Positions 3,957-38,361 of a stretch of DNA of 64,000 nucleotides are shown here, piece by piece; positions within the stretch are counted from its first letter, which is position 1; each line of letters opens with the position of its first letter. Both the position numbers and the translations under genes were made by a program. The stretch comes from Flavobacterium sp. 83 (GTDB lineage: Bacteria; Bacteroidota; Bacteroidia; Flavobacteriales; Flavobacteriaceae), in the NCBI RefSeq assembly GCF_000744835.1, contig NZ_JQMS01000001.1, forward strand, positions 186,001-250,000, in the 5' to 3' direction. The notes under the pieces are model-generated. The model was given only the letters and a program-made list of their open reading frames with translations. It did not search any database and was not told where the DNA came from.

Positions 3957-4811
3957 CTATTTCTTCTTTTTAATTATAGTTTTTTTGGTCGTAGTTTTTT
4001 TGGCAGCTACAACAGCTTTTTGTTGCACATACGGTTTGTACAATCCATCCGTTTCAGCTCTTTGTTTAGCAGTTTCCGCTCTTTCTTTAGAATCAGGATG
4101 TGAGCTTATCATTTTATCTAAAAAGGAGGCTTCTGTCCCTTCGCTCATTTTTGCCAAAATAGAAAAAGCTGAAGAAACCGCATTCACATTATATCCATTT
4201 TTTTTCATAAAATTATACGAGAATTCATCTGCTTCTGATTCTTGTTTTCTACTGTGTTTACTATCAATCATCATGCTTCCCAATTTAGCTAATTGACTAT
4301 CCGTTACAGCTGCCACTTTATCTGATTGTGAAGCAACAACATCTATTAAAGCTTCTTTTTTATAAGCCGCTTTCATAGCATCTCGGGAATCGTGATTAGC
4401 CACATGCCCGATTTCATGACCGATAACTGCTAGTAATTCATTATCATCCATAATATCCATCAATCCTGAATAAACACGAACACTTCCGTCAGCTGTTGCA
4501 AATGCGTTTACTTCATTTAGCTTATAAACTTTATAGTTTAATGTATATCCTTCCCCAGTTGTATGTTTTCCAAAAACTTTATTTAGACGGATTGTGTAAG
4601 GATCTTTTAGTCCTGTGACGGTATGTTCCGCATCCATTTTATCAACAGCTGCTTTAGATAAAGTTGCTGCATCAGCATCACTAAAAGTGAATCCTACAAC
4701 CCCTTTTTGAACCGCACCTAACACTTTTTCTCCAAAATTAATTTGTGCATTGGCTTTTGAAAGACCAAAAACTACCAATAATACCCCTAATAGTATTGAT
4801 TTATTTTTCAT
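3957..4811 (-). CDS. Secreted M48-family zinc metalloprotease
   Basis: A 284-residue protease. A signal peptide (about 1-22, cut after ANA) is followed by an M48 domain with the zinc-binding helix HEIGH (132-136) and the downstream ligand Glu in ESEADEFSYN (about 191-200). M48 enzymes include the periplasmic chaperone-proteases of the BepA/LoiP type, which act in outer-membrane protein quality control. The lack of a TPR domain makes this closer to the short LoiP/YcaL-like forms. The C-terminus is an unusual Lys/Thr-rich tail of about 20 residues. It is expressed towards the TonB-like gene and diverges from lipA. Confidence 0.9.
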   Translation of the reverse strand: MKNKSILLGVLLVVFGLSKANAQINFGEKVLGAVQKGVVGFTFSDADAATLSKAAVDKMDAEHTVTGLKDPYTIRLNKVFGKHTTGEGYTLNYKVYKLNEVNAFATADGSVRVYSGLMDIMDDNELLAVIGHEIGHVANHDSRDAMKAAYKKEALIDVVASQSDKVAAVTDSQLAKLGSMMIDSKHSRKQESEADEFSYNFMKKNGYNVNAVSSAFSILAKMSEGTEASFLDKMISSHPDSKERAETAKQRAETDGLYKPYVQQKAVVAAKKTTTKKTIIKKKK

Positions 4812-4920
4812 TTATTTTTGATTTTGAATTTCAAATATAATATTTTTTGAATAACTGGTTTAATGGCATACAATAAAAGTCAATCTTTCTTTAGAATGAA
4901 TCTTATCACCGACGCTTTCT

Positions 4921-5063
4921 AGCCTAGATAGCAGTGGAAATCCTTGTGTTTTGAAATGGTATTTTTTCTTGACAAAAAAGAGCGACCAACGGAAGCTCCT
5001 TTATGGTCTTAGAAAAACCCGTTTCAAAACACAAGATTAAAACGTATAGCTGGAAATTGCTCC
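4921..5063 (+). ncRNA. Candidate structured element, copy A (upstream of lipA)
   Basis: The core of a 346-nt gap (4812-5157) with no convincing coding frame. A head segment AGCCTAGATAGCAGTGGAAA is followed by the left arm of a perfect 14-bp inverted repeat, CTTGTGTTTTGAAA (4943-4956), and the right arm (5022-5035). A tail GTATAGCTGGAAATTGCTCC (5044-5063) ends it. A middle section contains GACCAACGGAAGCTCC. Head, stem and tail recur on the minus strand at 35766-35846 with a different stem sequence, so structure appears conserved more than sequence. It could be a structured RNA or a palindromic dispersed repeat. Whether it matches a known Rfam family such as Flavo-1 cannot be tested here. The rest of the gap shows only the lipA promoter. 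Confidence 0.55.
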
Positions 5064-5157: not shown

Positions 5158-6027
5158 ATGGAAACTGTTTTAGAAAATACTTTACCGATAGGAAAACCGA
5201 AATGGTTGAAGGTAAAACTCCCAATTGGCCAAAAATATACAGAGCTTCGTGGCTTAGTAGATAAATATAGTTTGAACACGATTTGTACCTCGGGAAGTTG
5301 TCCTAATATGGGTGAATGCTGGGGTGAAGGAACGGCAACATTTATGATTTTAGGAAATGTATGCACTCGTTCTTGTGGTTTTTGTGGTGTAAAAACCGGA
5401 AGACCAGAAACTGTGGATTGGGATGAGCCGGAAAAAGTGGCACGTTCAATAAAAATTATGAACATTAAACACGCGGTAATTACAAGTGTTGACAGAGATG
5501 ATTTGAAAGATGGCGGATCGATTATTTGGATTGAAACCGTAAAAGCCATTCGCAGAATGAACCCAAATACGACACTAGAAACTTTGATTCCTGATTTTCA
5601 AGGAATCGAAAGAAATATTGACCGTATTGTAGAGGCCAATCCTGAAGTAGTTTCGCATAATGTGGAAACAGTTCGCCGATTAACACGAGAAGTACGAATT
5701 CAGGCAAAATACGACCGAAGTCTTGAAGTGTTACGCTACTTGAAAGAAAAAGGAATTAACAGAACTAAGTCGGGAATCATGCTTGGTCTTGGTGAACAAG
5801 AAGATGAAGTTTATCAAACAATGCGAGATTTACGTGAGGCTAATGTTGATATAGTTACCATAGGTCAATACTTACAACCGAGTAAAAAACACTTGCCCGT
5901 AAAGGAATTTATAACGCCGGAACAATTTGCTAAATACGAGAAATTTGGTTTGGAATTAGGTTTCCGTCATGTAGAAAGCGGGCCTTTAGTTCGTTCTTCC
6001 TACAAAGCACAAAAACATATCCTTTAA
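5158..6027 (+). CDS. lipA: Lipoyl synthase
   Basis: A 289-residue radical SAM enzyme that inserts two sulfurs into octanoyl groups on lipoyl domains of 2-oxoacid dehydrogenases and the glycine cleavage H protein. The auxiliary cluster motif [12 protein letters not shown] (C43, C48, C54) and the SAM cluster motif CTRSCGFC (C69, C73, C76) are both intact. The C-terminal RSSY supplies the Ser ligand of the auxiliary cluster. Length is normal. The ATG at 5158 sits just after a good -7 element. It is followed by a heptad-repeat hairpin and gap, and has no adjacent lipB, so it is probably monocistronic. Confidence 0.97.
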
Positions 6028-7126: not shown

Positions 7127-9292
7127 ATGAAACACCTTTTCATTTTTATCTTTTTTTTAAATTCGGCCCTGTATTCTCAAGCCAGCGAGGAAACAGATAG
7201 TATTGTGTATTACAGCAACCTGAGCAAATCAAGTATCATAAATAATAAATATAGAAATGCTCTTTTATACACACAAAAAGCAATAAACTATTCTAAGGAG
7301 ATACGTGACAGCCAAGCTCAGGCAAATCAAACATATAACTTAGGGAAAATTTATTTTGATGTACAAAAATACAACGATGCCATTGAAAATTTTCATAAAA
7401 GCATCTCACTATATAAAAATTTAAAACCAACATCCTCATTAGCCTACTGCTATTACTATCTTGGAGTATGTTATGTTCAAAAAGCAAATTATACTGATGC
7501 TGAAATATGTTTCAATGAAACACAAAAGCTATTTAATGCGCTAAAAATCAACGATACTGCTAAAACACTAGAACTTCAAAGAGGACTAATTAAAAAAGCT
7601 ACGGGAAATTCAGAAGGAGCATCCACAATTTTCAAAACCATAATTGCAAATCCAGACAGCCCGTCAATATTAAATTCCAAAGCAGAAGCTTTATATCAAA
7701 TAGGAACAATTGAAGCATTAAAAAACAGGTATAATTTAGCTTTAAACTATCTGAACAAAGCATTAGAACTAACTGAAAAAAATAAAAATTTAGAACAAAA
7801 ATCTTCTATTTTATTGGCATTAAGTAATGTTTATGAAAAAATGCTGGATAAAAATAATGCCTATTCTTATTTAAAACAGCACCTTAATCTAAAAGAAAGT
7901 ATTTCTATTTTAAATAATGAAAGACTCGGTATAGATGATTACGAAAAATTTAAAGAATCACAACGATTAAAAGAACTGACACAACAAAAGAATGAAGACA
8001 AACAGCAAGAAAAAGCAAATAAGTTTTCTAAACTAATTAGTATTCTTGCAATTGCATTAATTTCTATTTTATCCTTATTAAGCTTGTCTTTGTATAAAAA
8101 CAATATTATTAGAACACAAGCAAATCTAATGTTGAAAGAGAAAAACAAAGAATTAGAAATTGCTAAAGAGAAAGCAGAAAGAGCTTCTAATGCCCGTTCT
8201 GAATTTTTATCGACAGTTAGCCATGAACTTCGAACACCGCTCAATGCTATAAATGGAATAACTCATTTATTATTAGAAGAAAAGCCTAAAAAATCCCAAA
8301 TGAACTATTTGTCTTCCTTAAAATTTTCTGGAGATTATCTGACAAAGTTTATAAATGAAATTCTGGAAATTAATAAAATCGATTCTAATAAGCTGGAAAT
8401 TGAATACATCAACTTTAATCTTAAACAATTATTAGGCAATATAAAGAACTCTTTAAAAGAATTAGCTTGTGAGAATAATAACAAATTTAATCTTGAAATT
8501 GATTCTGCAATTCCTGATTATTTGATTGGTGATCCTACAAAATTATCTCAAGTAATAATGAATTTGATCAACAATGCTTTAAAATTTACAAAAAACGGTA
8601 CTGTTACTGTACTGGCCAAACTTCATGCTGTAAATGATAAAAATGCAACATTATATTTTGAAGTAAGTGATACCGGAATAGGGATTCCTTTTGATAAACT
8701 AGAAAGTGTTTTTGACAGTTTTTCACAAGGTTCCATAGAAATCAATCGCAAATATGGCGGAACGGGTTTGGGGCTTACAATTGTAAAAAAATTGATAAAA
8801 ATTCTAGGAGGAAAAATAAACCTGAATAGCGAAGTAGGAAAAGAATCTTCATTTTCATTCGAATTACAATTTGAGAAAGGTACTGAAGCAATCAAAAAGC
8901 AAGAAAAAATTAAAACGTATGATGCTTCTTTGTTGAAAAATAAAAAAATACTTTTAGTGGAAGACAATAAAATCAATCAAATGATTACAGAGAAAATGCT
9001 TCGTAATAAAGGAATCTTATGTGAAACTATTGATAATGGTGAAGATGCGATAGAAAGAGCTAAAAACAATACATATGATTTAATTCTCATGGATGTTCAT
9101 CTTCCGGGAATAAATGGCACTATAGCCACCGAAGAAATTAGAAAATTTGACACTAAAACGCCTGTTATTGCCTTAACAGCCATCTCATTGGACGAAAACA
9201 GGGAAATATTATTATCCTATGGCATGAATGATGTTGTTACAAAACCATTCATACCAGAAGATTTCTATGCCGTAATTGCTAAAAACGTATAG
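7127..9292 (+). CDS. TPR hybrid sensor histidine kinase with receiver domain
   Basis: A 721-residue one-protein signalling system. A signal peptide (about 1-19) leads to a periplasmic region of tetratricopeptide-like helices (about 30-270), then one membrane helix (303-323) and a coiled coil (330-355). HisKA follows with SHELRTPLNA (His366), then an HATPase with DTGIGIP and GGTGLGL (about 470-580). A C-terminal receiver has VEDN and phospho-acceptor Asp656 in LMDVHLPG. There is no DNA-binding output, so signal must pass to an unlinked phosphotransfer or regulator protein. TPR sensor regions are common in Bacteroidetes kinases. The ligand is not known. It lies 20 nt behind gap, but a metabolic link is only a guess. 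Confidence 0.9.
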   Translation: MKHLFIFIFFLNSALYSQASEETDSIVYYSNLSKSSIINNKYRNALLYTQKAINYSKEIRDSQAQANQTYNLGKIYFDVQKYNDAIENFHKSISLYKNLKPTSSLAYCYYYLGVCYVQKANYTDAEICFNETQKLFNALKINDTAKTLELQRGLIKKATGNSEGASTIFKTIIANPDSPSILNSKAEALYQIGTIEALKNRYNLALNYLNKALELTEKNKNLEQKSSILLALSNVYEKMLDKNNAYSYLKQHLNLKESISILNNERLGIDDYEKFKESQRLKELTQQKNEDKQQEKANKFSKLISILAIALISILSLLSLSLYKNNIIRTQANLMLKEKNKELEIAKEKAERASNARSEFLSTVSHELRTPLNAINGITHLLLEEKPKKSQMNYLSSLKFSGDYLTKFINEILEINKIDSNKLEIEYINFNLKQLLGNIKNSLKELACENNNKFNLEIDSAIPDYLIGDPTKLSQVIMNLINNALKFTKNGTVTVLAKLHAVNDKNATLYFEVSDTGIGIPFDKLESVFDSFSQGSIEINRKYGGTGLGLTIVKKLIKILGGKINLNSEVGKESSFSFELQFEKGTEAIKKQEKIKTYDASLLKNKKILLVEDNKINQMITEKMLRNKGILCETIDNGEDAIERAKNNTYDLILMDVHLPGINGTIATEEIRKFDTKTPVIALTAISLDENREILLSYGMNDVVTKPFIPEDFYAVIAKNV

Positions 9293-34656: not shown

Positions 34657-35664
34657 TTACCATTTTATTATAGCACTAGCCCAAGTAAATCCACTACCAA
34701 AAGCAGCTAAAACTACGGTGTCTCCTGATTTTATTTTTCCTTTTTCCCAAGCTTCAGTCAAAGCGATTGGAATAGATGCGGCAGTTGTATTTCCGTATTT
34801 TTGAATATTATTATATACTTGATCATCTGTAAGATTAAATTTCTTTTGGATGAACTGAGAAATTCTCAAATTTGCTTGATGTGGAATCAGCATATCGATA
34901 TCCGAAACCTGCAAGTTATTCGCCTGCAAACCTTCATTTATTACTTCGCTGAAACGAACTACCGCATTTTTAAACACAAATTGCCCATTCATATAAGGGA
35001 AATAACTTTCATCATCCGGATCATTATCCGCTAAAATATCAGTTACCCAGCGTCCGCCCATTCCTGGAGCCTTTACAATTAACTCCTCGGCATGTTGCCC
35101 CTCTGAATGCAAATGTGTAGACAAAATTCCTTTGGTCAAATCTTCTTCTCTACTCAAAACTGCTGCTCCTGCCCCATCTCCAAAAATTACCGAAACGCCT
35201 CTGCCTCGTGTCGACATATCCAATCCGGTAGAATGTACTTCAGAACCAATAACCAAAACATTTTTATACATTCCGGTTTTAATATATTGATCAGCTACTG
35301 ACAAAGCATATACAAAACCCGAACATTGATTTCTAACATCTAAAGCGCCAACAGTTCTAAGTCCTAAATCCCGTTGTACTAAAACTCCAGGACCAGGAAA
35401 ATAATAATCAGGGCTTAAAGTGGCAAAAACTACAAAATCTATGTCTTGTTTTGCAACACCGGAACGCTCAATCGCAATTTCAGCAGCTTTAACTCCCATT
35501 GAAGTCGTCGTATCTTCCCCGCGTATAATGTGTCTTCTTTCCTGAATACCCGTACGCTCTTGAATCCACTCATCATTCGTATCTATAATTTTAGATAAAT
35601 CATCATTGGTAACTACATTGGAAGGAACGTAAAATCCTAATCCTGTTATTTTTGAATGGTACAT
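34657..35664 (-). CDS. fabH: 3-oxoacyl-ACP synthase III (KAS III)
   Basis: A 335-residue condensing enzyme of the FabH family, which starts fatty-acid synthesis by joining an acyl-CoA with malonyl-ACP. The Cys-His-Asn triad is visible: Cys114 in RNQCSGF, His in IPHQANLRI (about 258) and Asn in YGNTTAASIP (about 288). The N-terminus ITGLGFYVPSNVVTN and DTNDEWIQERTGI are family hallmarks. No plsX or rpmF neighbour is present, so this may be a second, unlinked KAS III copy or one with different acyl specificity. Structured element copy B lies about 100 nt upstream on the same strand. Confidence 0.92.
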   Translation of the reverse strand: MYHSKITGLGFYVPSNVVTNDDLSKIIDTNDEWIQERTGIQERRHIIRGEDTTTSMGVKAAEIAIERSGVAKQDIDFVVFATLSPDYYFPGPGVLVQRDLGLRTVGALDVRNQCSGFVYALSVADQYIKTGMYKNVLVIGSEVHSTGLDMSTRGRGVSVIFGDGAGAAVLSREEDLTKGILSTHLHSEGQHAEELIVKAPGMGGRWVTDILADNDPDDESYFPYMNGQFVFKNAVVRFSEVINEGLQANNLQVSDIDMLIPHQANLRISQFIQKKFNLTDDQVYNNIQKYGNTTAASIPIALTEAWEKGKIKSGDTVVLAAFGSGFTWASAIIKW

Positions 35665-35765: not shown

Positions 35766-35846
35766 CAGTAGCTATTTCCTGCTGTTCACTGTATCTTTTA
35801 TTCTCTAAAAAAACGAGAATAAAAGGATGCCGTTCCCATCAGGGCT
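35766..35846 (-). ncRNA. Candidate structured element, copy B (upstream of fabH)
   Basis: Read on the minus strand: head AGCCCTGATGGGAACGGCAT, then a perfect 10-bp hairpin TTTTATTCTC / GAGAATAAAA with a 9-nt loop (35796-35824), then tail GAACAGCAGGAAATAGCTAC. Head and tail align with copy A at 4921-5063 (AGCC-GAT-G-GG---ATCC and AGC-GGAAAT-GCT-C) while the stem sequence differs. Both copies precede, on the same strand, a gene concerned with acyl metabolism, at 94 and 101 nt. It may be a structured RNA or a palindromic dispersed element. Confidence 0.55.
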
Positions 35847-35952
35847 ATAAAACACAATTTAAAGACGACGTTTTATTTTCAAATGTAACAATAGGACATT
35901 AATTTAGACAAATCATTACAATTAATTCTTATCAATTGAAACCATTTTATAT

Positions 35953-38361
35953 ATGAAATTAAAAGCAACCTTATTGTTTATAGCATTAGGTTTATCCGGT
36001 TTTGCACAGGAAAACTTAACCTATCAAAAACCTTCGAAATCAATATTAGATTTAGCTGATTATCAAAGAGCGCCTTCCGTATCGATGGACACCAAAAAAG
36101 AATACATGCTTTTGTCCTATAGAAATACCTATAAAACATTAGATGATTTAAACCAAGAAGAATTGCGATTAGGTGGTTTAAGAATTAATCCTGTAACTAA
36201 TATTTCAAGTACAGTTACCTATATTACCAACCTGAAATTACGAAAAACACAAGACAAAAGCGAAATACAGGTTTCAGGCTTACCAACTAATCCACGCATC
36301 AGTAATTTATCTTGGTCGCCTAATGATTCTAAAATTTTATTTTCCAATACAATCAATACCGGAGTTGAACTTTGGGTTTTGGACGTAGCTTCCGCTAAGG
36401 CAAAAAAATTGACCGAAGCAACTGTAAATGCAAATCTTGGCAATCCATTTAGCTGGTTCAGCGATAACGAAACTATTTTGGTGAAAATGCTGCCAAAAAA
36501 TAGAGTAGCACTTTTGGATGCTAAAAAAGATCTGCCAACCGGTCCAATAATTTCCAATGCAGATGGTTCAAAATCACAAAACAGAACCTATCCGGATATG
36601 TTGAAAAATAAAAATGATGAAATCAATTTTGAAAATATCATTACATCTGAATTGTATAAAGTAAACTTAAACGGCACAATAACTTTATTTAAAAATGCCG
36701 ACATGTATGCCGGAGAAAGTTTCTCTCCAGATGGGAATTACCTGATGCTAACTACCATTCAAAAACCATTTTCATACATTGTTCCTCTAAGTCGATTCCC
36801 ATTAAAAACAGTAGTTTACGATAAAAAAGGTATTACTGTAAAAACAGTAAATGAAGTTCCGTTGAATGAAATCATGCCAAAAGGATTTATGGCAGTTCGA
36901 AAAGGAAAAAGAGAACTGGCTTGGAGAAATGACAAACCGGCAACACTATCCTATGTTGTAGCTCTAGATGAAGGAGATCAGGCAAATAAAGTTGCGTTCA
37001 GAGACGAAGTGTTTCTTTGGGAAGCCCCTTTTAACGCAGAAGCAATTTCATTACTAAAAACACCACAACGCTTTAGTGATATCATATGGGGGAATGATGC
37101 TGTGGCTATTGTTTCAGATGAATGGTATGACACTCGAAATACAAAAACATACTTAATCAATCCATCGGATTTAAAGCAAAAACCAATCGTTATTTCGGAT
37201 CGAAATTCACAAGATATTTACGCAGATCCTGGGGCTTTTGAAACTAAAAAGAATCAATACAATAAATATGTTTTAGCCATCGAAAATGGAAATGCGTTCC
37301 GCATAGGAGATGGTTATACTAAAGACGGACAGTTTCCGTTTATCGATAAATTCAATCTAAAAACATTACAATCAAAACGACTGTACACCTCGCTCTACAA
37401 AGACAAGAAAGAGGATTTATTAGAAATTGAGGATTTCAAGAATGGAAAAGTTTTAGTTCAGATTCAGTCCAAAAGTGAATACCCTAATTATTACTTTAGA
37501 AACATAAGACAAAAAAATAGCCTGATTCCGATTACTGCCTTCAAAAACCCATTTGAAAGTATTAAAAATGTAAATAAGGAAGTAATCAAATACAAACGAA
37601 AAGATGGTGTAGAATTATCTGGAACTTTATACTTACCTGCCGGGTATGATAAAGTCAAAAAAGAAAAATTACCTTTATTGATTTGGGCGTATCCCGCTGA
37701 ATTCAAAGATAAAAGTAGTGCAGGACAAAGCAATCAAAATCCAAATGAATTTACATTTCCCTATTATGGTTCCTTTGTATATTGGGTAACCAAAGGATAT
37801 GTTGTGCTCGATGACGCTTCGTTTCCTATTATTGGGGAAGGAACAACGGAACCAAATGACAATTTTATTCCTCAATTAGTGGATGATGCAGAAGCTGCAA
37901 TAAATGCAGTTGATGCTTTGGGATACATCAACAAGAAAAAAGTGGCTGTTGGAGGACATTCGTATGGTGCTTTTATGGTAGCTAATTTACTGACGCACTC
38001 CAATCTTTTTGCCTGTGGAATTGCCAGAAGTGGTGCATACAATAGAACATTAACTCCGTTTGGTTTTCAAAGTGAACAGCGAAATTATTGGGAAGTTCCC
38101 GACGTTTACAACGCAATATCTCCTTTTATGAATGCCGAAAAAATGAAAACGCCAATGCTTTTAGTTCATGGGGAAGCAGATAACAATCCCGGAACTTTCA
38201 CATTACAAACTGAACGTTATTTTCAAGCTTTAAAAGGATTAGGGGCTCCAGCAAGAATGGTAATCTTACCAAAAGAAGCGCACAGTTACGTAGCGAAAGA
38301 AAATATTTTACATTTGCTTTGGGAACAAGACCAGTTTTTGGAAAAGTATTTAAAAAATTAG
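35953..38361 (+). CDS. Secreted S9-family peptidase (S9D-like)
   Basis: An 802-residue serine peptidase of the prolyl oligopeptidase clan. Signal peptide (about 1-18, LGLSGFAQ), then a beta-propeller (about 80-520) that gates access, then the alpha/beta hydrolase domain. The nucleophile is Ser670 in VGGHSYGAFM, the acid is in LVHGEADNNPG and the His in LPKEAHSYVAKEN. The sequence around GYINKKKVAVGGHSYGAF and the long N-terminal part resemble glutamyl endopeptidase-like S9D members more than dipeptidyl peptidase IV. It probably cuts peptides in the periplasm for amino-acid use. It is monocistronic, with a strong terminator 19 nt after its stop. Confidence 0.9.
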   Translation: MKLKATLLFIALGLSGFAQENLTYQKPSKSILDLADYQRAPSVSMDTKKEYMLLSYRNTYKTLDDLNQEELRLGGLRINPVTNISSTVTYITNLKLRKTQDKSEIQVSGLPTNPRISNLSWSPNDSKILFSNTINTGVELWVLDVASAKAKKLTEATVNANLGNPFSWFSDNETILVKMLPKNRVALLDAKKDLPTGPIISNADGSKSQNRTYPDMLKNKNDEINFENIITSELYKVNLNGTITLFKNADMYAGESFSPDGNYLMLTTIQKPFSYIVPLSRFPLKTVVYDKKGITVKTVNEVPLNEIMPKGFMAVRKGKRELAWRNDKPATLSYVVALDEGDQANKVAFRDEVFLWEAPFNAEAISLLKTPQRFSDIIWGNDAVAIVSDEWYDTRNTKTYLINPSDLKQKPIVISDRNSQDIYADPGAFETKKNQYNKYVLAIENGNAFRIGDGYTKDGQFPFIDKFNLKTLQSKRLYTSLYKDKKEDLLEIEDFKNGKVLVQIQSKSEYPNYYFRNIRQKNSLIPITAFKNPFESIKNVNKEVIKYKRKDGVELSGTLYLPAGYDKVKKEKLPLLIWAYPAEFKDKSSAGQSNQNPNEFTFPYYGSFVYWVTKGYVVLDDASFPIIGEGTTEPNDNFIPQLVDDAEAAINAVDALGYINKKKVAVGGHSYGAFMVANLLTHSNLFACGIARSGAYNRTLTPFGFQSEQRNYWEVPDVYNAISPFMNAEKMKTPMLLVHGEADNNPGTFTLQTERYFQALKGLGAPARMVILPKEAHSYVAKENILHLLWEQDQFLEKYLKN

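Follow-up and report, generated by a model that had tools for sequence, protein, structure and literature searches.

Two places in the 64,000-nucleotide stretch of Flavobacterium sp. 83 DNA analysed here (the window) carry the same arrangement of head, hairpin and tail in intergenic DNA, raising the question of what this element is, and whether its fold matters in RNA or in DNA. An earlier note on the sequence had described the pair, associated it with dispersed flavobacterial intergenic elements and proposed a comparison with Rfam families including Flavo-1. We ran this comparison, and both elements are Flavo-1 (RF01705): copy 1 scores 64.5 bits (E-value 8.1e-12) and copy 2 scores 76.3 bits (4.7e-15), both above the family's gathering score of 42 bits. 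Their identity is that of an already known family, catalogued but unexplained. Both lie within a few bases of where they had first been placed, and their parts are as follows:

4920..5063, plus strand: Flavo-1 copy 1, whole (head, core, tip, tail); RF01705 match of 64.5 bits at 4917-5060
4920..4943, plus strand: conserved head of copy 1, TAGCC-N-GAT-X-GNA-R-Y-GG-AA-ATCC (read from the sequence)
4943..4956, plus strand: left arm of the 14-bp outer tip stem of copy 1 (sequence, fold)
4980..4998, plus strand: nested small hairpin GAGC-gaccaacggaa-GCTC within the tip of copy 1 (sequence, fold)
5022..5035, plus strand: right arm of the 14-bp outer tip stem of copy 1 (sequence, fold)
5035..5063, plus strand: conserved tail of copy 1, GAT...R'Y'-GNA-X'-AGC-N'-GGAAATTGCTCC (read from the sequence)
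35766..35847, minus strand: Flavo-1 copy 2, whole; RF01705 match of 76.3 bits at 35771-35850
35825..35847, minus strand: conserved head of copy 2, TAGCCCTGATGGGAACGGCATCC (read from the sequence)
35795..35825, minus strand: tip hairpin of copy 2, 11-bp arms and a T-rich loop (sequence, fold)
35766..35795, minus strand: conserved tail of copy 2, GATACAGTGAACAGCAGGAAATAGCTACTG (read from the sequence)

Copy 1 reads TAGCCTAGATAGCAGTGGAAATCC ... GATTAAAACGTATAGCTGGAAATTGCTCC (window 4920-5063, plus strand) and copy 2 reads TAGCCCTGATGGGAACGGCATCC ... GATACAGTGAACAGCAGGAAATAGCTACTG (window 35847-35766, minus strand). The central hairpin had been described as perfect in both, with stems of 14 and 10 bp. 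The first length stands, while the second is 11 bp on recount (35825-35815 / 35805-35795). Copy 1 is more than a simple hairpin: its long tip folds again and encloses a further small stem-loop, GAGC...GCTC, whose like can be seen by eye in the copy upstream of lipA in genome G036 and in the sp. 83 copy at 586396. Copy 1 lies between the divergent ORFs 3957-4811 (minus strand) and 5158-6027 (plus strand), which we take from their translations to be an M48-type peptidase-like protein and a lipoyl-synthase-like protein (lipA), respectively. The neighbours of copy 2 are ORF 34657-35664 (minus strand), presumably a ketoacyl-ACP synthase III (FabH)-like protein, and an 802-aa ORF at 35953-38361 (plus strand), presumably peptidase-like, both again recognised from translation.

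As RNA, copy 1 folds with a z-score of -4.9 in the sense direction (0 of 200 shuffles as good) and -3.9 in antisense. For copy 2 the values are -2.4 (5 of 200 shuffles as good) and -4.4; its antisense strand is thus the better folded, which speaks against a simple RNA reading. With DNA folding parameters, far less of the core of copy 2 is predicted. The occupancy of both sites differs between species. In the region upstream of lipA (420 bases, fewer at contig ends), pattern and eye together found Flavo-1 in one of 29 other loci, that of G036. At the fabH site, read by eye, Flavo-1 is present in G036 and in degenerate form in G030, and G007 and G029 have seemingly the same neighbours without it. 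At both sites the flanks have, by eye, diverged too far to delimit a clean empty site of the kind by which a transposon-derived MITE is recognised.

The window copies are part of a large set. The sp. 83 genome (one contig, 3.79 Mb) contains 101 Flavo-1 matches at E<=0.001, 89 of them above the cut-off. Omitting nine sub-cut-off places and a second-strand match at 1285875 left the 91 copies used for anatomy and gene context, and 87 of these lie outside ORFs as called by a crude ORF caller. The suspected dispersed intergenic element is therefore real, with about 100 places in this genome. Matches were found in 40 of 60 genomes (sp. 83 included), and counts within the genus range from zero (two of 37 genomes) to at least 65 per genome. 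An exact DNA pattern derived from Flavo-1 matched at least 120 stretches in the collection searched. Among the 80 pattern matches listed, 41 have Flavobacterium in the title, and the other titles include Chryseobacterium, Kaistella, Halpernia, Aquimarina, Mesonia, Arenibacter, Pelobium, Chitinophagaceae, Cytophagaceae and a Prolixibacteraceae bin.

Rfam types Flavo-1 as an sRNA. In the available parts of the literature it appears as a table row in Weinberg et al. 2010 (PMC2864571) and among the most abundant small RNA families in a review (PMC9029176). The catalogued sequence and structure model fits both window copies and 89 sp. 83 copies; however, where the catalogue has an sRNA, the sp. 83 copies act as dispersed stationary sites with exchangeable interiors. 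We found no account of the site stability, tip exchange or strand asymmetry described below in the literature searched, which was largely without subscription papers and preprints, nor any title describing such behaviour in the Flavobacterium literature on repeats, palindromes and interspersed repeats (searched mostly by title).

Side-by-side reading of the sp. 83 copies, 75 of which could be parsed and 16 not, reveals a modular element of about 70-145 nt. Its consensus head, TAGCCC-N-GAT-X-GNA-R-Y-GG-(C or AA)-ATC-C, is followed by a tip hairpin and a tail, GAT-...-A-R'-Y'-GNA-X'-AGC-N'-GGGAAATAGCTCC. The four core pairs N-N', X-X', R-Y' and Y-R' are Watson-Crick in 69, 67, 70 and 67 of the 75 parsed copies, with 4, 4, 2 and 2 Watson-Crick types, respectively, and conserved non-canonical steps (GNA/GNA, A-G and G-A) lie between these covarying pairs. 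There is also a second outer class (GCGTGAGGGAT ... AGCCCGACCCG ... CGGGTCACGC), as well as further end modules. The tips are free in sequence and length but as a rule pair well as a hairpin, and many can be grouped into families: those with TTTCTTTAA or GGGGTTC loops, CCGCC-TTTT-GGCGG, a tip we call P1, and GCGNAGC. The last recalls the very stable DNA mini-hairpin GC(GNA)GC, a lead only.

That pairing is kept while bases change, as proposed from the two window copies, thus holds family-wide. The step from there to a selected structure survives in part: the element is structured, but covariation alone does not make it a discrete selected RNA, because part of the apparent covariation arises from the exchange of interiors between copies and the copies show no gene-orientation preference (both described below).

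Two further kinds of repeat came up during this reading. The tails of L122, L156, L163 and L162 carry extra modules (TTCACTTTG...GTTCAGTGAACTTCGTTTG and ACGAGCGAAGCGAACTGACGAAGTAA), which suggests nested small repeats using Flavo-1 as a landing place. Three sp. 83 stretches (1000-1093, 480719-480812 and 487382-487475; about 180 bases printed, two identical and one similar) match Flavo-1 weakly with another apex, and are perhaps a sister family.

Flavo-1 sites are old, with positions and orientations common to sp. 83 and G029, the only relative compared in full. Of its 74 matches we fetched 70, and 54 of these sit at 54 distinct sp. 83 sites (41 with both flanks aligned, 13 with one), 53 of them in the same orientation. 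Since the sp. 83 fragments compared amount to 8.1% of the genome, only about six of the 70 would be expected there by chance; the 16 other copies may be without an sp. 83 copy or lie outside the fragments compared. Similarity of the two flanks is 0.73 and 0.76 at shared sites versus 0.54 and 0.53 in mismatched pairs, and agreement of core states is 0.71 versus 0.45. The 33 G029 copies that could be parsed have 128 of 132 core pairs Watson-Crick. The earlier note had made its structural reading depend on further copies with preserved pairing in related genomes, and many such copies exist.

Reading of alignments for 31 copies from G007, G010, G029 and G036 placed 22 at an sp. 83 site. Among nine further copies from G006 and G015, outside these 31, two (L318 and L319) partly match the sp. 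83 site at 7633. One G010 locus (L299, 3645-3834) shows short overlapping alignments 98-99% identical to sp. 83 next to flanks whose similarity is otherwise 87-88%.

The interiors of these fixed sites are replaced. Of the 54 shared sp. 83/G029 pairs, 33 were parsed and 21 were not; at a tip-similarity threshold of 0.82, picked after inspecting the pairs, the tip was kept in 15 of the 33 and replaced in 18. The inner core (Y or the C/AA step) had changed in 2/15 tip-kept pairs versus 12/18 tip-replaced pairs (p=0.004). Leaving out the single opposite-orientation pair gives 2/15 versus 11/17 (p 0.005), and the 24 pairs with both flanks aligned give 2/11 versus 9/13 (p=0.019). When the threshold is varied between 0.75 and 0.9, p-values across these three pair sets stay within 0.004 to 0.047. 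Any core change at all was not significantly associated with tip state (7/15 kept, 13/18 replaced, p 0.17). As core change is frequent even where the tip is kept (7/15), point-wise compensatory change also contributes. Individual pairs illustrate both extents of replacement: sp. 83 769253 and its G029 counterpart (L325) have flanks and all four core pairs in common and differ in the tip, while sp. 83 3032439 and its counterpart (L326) have near-identical flanks but share neither the tip nor any of the four core pairs.

The P1 tip (CTGAAACAAGTTCAGGA, allowing at most one mismatch) has nine matches in the sp. 83 genome, every one within five Flavo-1 copies, and we therefore reject P1 as a free-standing repeat. 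Four of the five copies could be parsed, and these have four different cores. Four of the five sites have a G029 counterpart, all without P1, and none of the 70 fetched G029 copies was placed at the fifth. This distribution is most simply explained if tips are copied between sites inside the genome. A separate kind of change is seen in the copy at 1285875-1285961 (L114), where left and right arms are reverse complements of each other over 34 bases, apart from a single base. The conserved mismatches are gone, Rfam matches both strands, and the copy looks like a template-switch product.

If pairing merely decays, or if both strands matter alike, G-T and A-C should be equally common among imperfect pairs. 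We counted both in the copies kept by a stricter pattern, 63 from sp. 83 and 118 from elsewhere (110 of the 120 loci), and in the 33 G029 copies. In the tips, G-T to A-C is 11:2, 36:3 and 6:0, respectively. Pooled and with similar tips removed, 112 tips contain 33 G-T against 3 A-C (p 2e-7). By set, this removal leaves 7:1 (p 0.07) in sp. 83 and 5:0 (p 0.06) in G029, whose copies were chosen by covariance model, a choice that may tilt the count towards G-T, and 27:2 (p 2e-6) in the pattern-fetched set, whose copies were chosen without regard to tip pairing and are free of this bias for tips. In the core pairs the asymmetry is weak or absent (10:3 in 75 sp. 83 copies, 3:2 in the 118 others, 1:1 in the 33 from G029). 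Apical loops are also strand-polarised: TCTTTA 37:2, GGGGTTC 24:0 and GCGNAGC 15:0, similar tips included.

Given the excess of G-T in tips and the polarity of the loops, the folded strand is probably the Rfam sense strand. The tips thus support a strand-specific folded form, which is compatible with RNA or single-stranded DNA alike. Fold energies of the whole element are contradictory, with the sense strand stabler in 49 of 63 sp. 83 copies and the antisense strand stabler in 81 of 118 others, likely because a conserved C-A mismatch reads G-T on the other strand. We saw no replication-strand bias (41 versus 50 copies, a hand count with an approximate GC-skew origin).

It is possible, if rather doubtful, that Flavo-1 is a true RNA element, transcribed in sense from its own promoter or by read-through, with the rod binding a protein or acting as an sRNA or UTR element. 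The strand-specific G-T tolerance of the tips, the covariation and the Rfam typing would all fit, and in the available part of a study of F. psychrophilum several 5' transcribed regions coincide with Flavo-1 matches (PMC9723704). However, the same source describes matches as indistinctly sense or antisense to transcribed regions, and many as lying outside them (PMC9723704). Likewise, our copies show no gene-orientation preference (++ 21 and -- 30 in sp. 83; ++ 19 and -- 18 in other species, where 71 of 118 copies were usable). Pairing is not poorer in the 24 copies that run antisense to both neighbours, where 91 of 96 core cells are Watson-Crick, three G-T and none A-C (94.8% Watson-Crick versus 87.5-91.7% in other contexts), and we therefore dropped read-through RNA from neighbouring genes as a need for pairing. 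A promoter-like TTG-N17..22-TAnnTTTG lies upstream of 4/91 copies versus 0/91 on the opposite side, in the direction expected of an RNA but rare; TAnnTTTG alone occurs 11 times upstream and six times on the opposite side of the 91 copies. A transcription terminator or promoter-linked element is scarcely credible. Median distances to gene ends are short (30 to 82 nt), and class B copies have short T-runs past the tail, yet the gaps that hold copies look much like the background: there is no enrichment of convergent gaps (11/85 versus 49/300 background gaps, other species' loci) and no clear one of divergent gaps (23/85 versus 60/300), and by eye class A copies have no T-run right after GCTCC.

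Could the copies instead be a selfish, now largely inactive mobile repeat, whose leftover structure is homogenised by gene conversion and has no present function? About 100 dispersed copies, species counts from zero to at least 65 and exchanged interiors would be in keeping with this, but we consider it unlikely, as two species have sites and orientations in common while their flanks diverge, G029 copies remain almost fully paired (128/132), and decay without selection predicts equal G-T and A-C in tips rather than the observed 33:3. An autonomous parent with an internal gene is also rejected: a head-motif scan of the sp. 83 genome found 58 sites and, compared by eye with the covariance-model matches, one clear extra at 2953127. 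As this site lies within a 563-aa open frame on its own strand, the motif has probably arisen there by chance inside a gene. Very improbable, too, is mobilisation of Flavo-1 as a REP-type element by a RAYT, a Y1 HUH transposase. Flavo-1 does look like imperfect REP palindromes, one RAYT gene (NF047646, 86 bits, cut-off 80) ends about 90 bp before a same-strand Flavo-1 copy, and Bacteroidetes RAYTs of subclass 2.6 are described, in the part of the source available, as flanked by 'atypical secondary structures' that are copied elsewhere in the genome (PMC6006769). However, Flavo-1 turns up within about 1.5 kb at only 6/30 RAYT loci, and the 16 of these loci that were inspected have palindromes of other kinds on their flanks. 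Among G001-G036, 16 genomes lack a RAYT match, yet eight of them carry 40 or more Flavo-1 copies. Most Flavo-1 sites are, moreover, shared with G029. RAYT mobilisation of Flavo-1 is thus not supported.

The RAYT loci have a pattern of their own. Flavobacterium RAYT genes are bracketed by inverted palindromes (e.g. sp. 83 2320509-2321072, L034, and L035-L050). At the 16 loci inspected by eye, of 30, these are variants of CCACACGAAAGGATTCGTGCGGTAGCGG in ten and of CACGAGCG-GACGCTCGCGC-AGC in six, on both sides in 15 and, in L042, on the one side covered; the former flank a close RAYT group and the latter another group. These palindromes are candidates for the 'atypical' REPs described for Bacteroidetes RAYTs, and the RAYT gene near one Flavo-1 copy appears to be a bystander with its own palindromes, which would fit the subclass 2.6 description as far as it is available (PMC6006769). 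At a further sp. 83 locus (L031, 2631231-2634428), a long open frame contains an in-frame Y1-transposase-like match together with repeated GFKPLVD/GFKPIV segments. From its translation we take this frame to encode a DNA-methyltransferase-like protein; it is as if the transposase and palindromes had been inserted without breaking the frame.

Our preferred reading, held tentatively, is that Flavo-1 is a hairpin site that stays in place and folds from one given strand, probably as single-stranded DNA, while ectopic gene conversion rewrites its interior. Shared sites whose tips are often replaced suit a folded DNA site no less well than a conventional small RNA gene. Sites would be inherited mainly vertically at fixed positions and orientations in intergenic DNA. 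One given strand would fold into a rod of short covarying helices, conserved non-canonical steps and a hairpin tip of free sequence. This strand would be single-stranded DNA, exposed for example at replication, and may be recognised by its shape by a putative protein. A putative hairpin nuclease would occasionally break the palindromic tip, and repair of the break from another Flavo-1 copy would overwrite the tip and variable lengths of the core arms together, while the flanks stay. Such ectopic repair would spread tips among copies and keep the copies foldable. We infer single-stranded DNA because gene orientation is irrelevant and because of the F. psychrophilum matches in sense, in antisense or outside transcribed regions; the tolerance of G-T, which RNA would show at least as readily as single-stranded DNA, counts against it.

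Several known systems invite comparison. REP/BIME elements with their RAYTs are likewise high-copy intergenic imperfect palindromes; unlike these, Flavo-1 has no cognate RAYT that we found, shows by eye no constant GTAG/GGAG-type tetranucleotide tag at one foot in the copies inspected, and is longer (about 70-145 nt) and modular, with hairpin sequence free and structure kept. A 1988 paper by Higgins reportedly asks in its title whether REPs evolve by gene conversion. BOX elements of Streptococcus pneumoniae are modular dispersed intergenic repeats built of tandem boxes, whereas the modules of Flavo-1 are a nested tip, core and outer ends. Integron attC sites are strand-specific folded hairpins with structure over sequence and a variable terminal part, three features that Flavo-1 has in common with them; however, the box sequences differ by eye, and Flavo-1 is not in cassette arrays as far as read. 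Modelled on the integron integrase, which recognises folded attC sites, a quite improbable extension of our reading would make Flavo-1 loci the docking sites of a putative dedicated, structure-guided recombination system of Bacteroidota, which would act on folded single strands and swap hairpin cassettes among about 100 fixed chromosomal sites, moving tips and sometimes whole interiors.

If Flavo-1 is indeed a DNA hairpin with an exchanged interior, its sRNA label would be misleading, and its covariation would be no proof of RNA. Each genome would then hold about 100 natural markers for ectopic gene conversion at palindromes. A question that has stood since the description of the family in 2010 thereby becomes testable: whether Flavo-1 has a transcript, a binding protein, or is only DNA.
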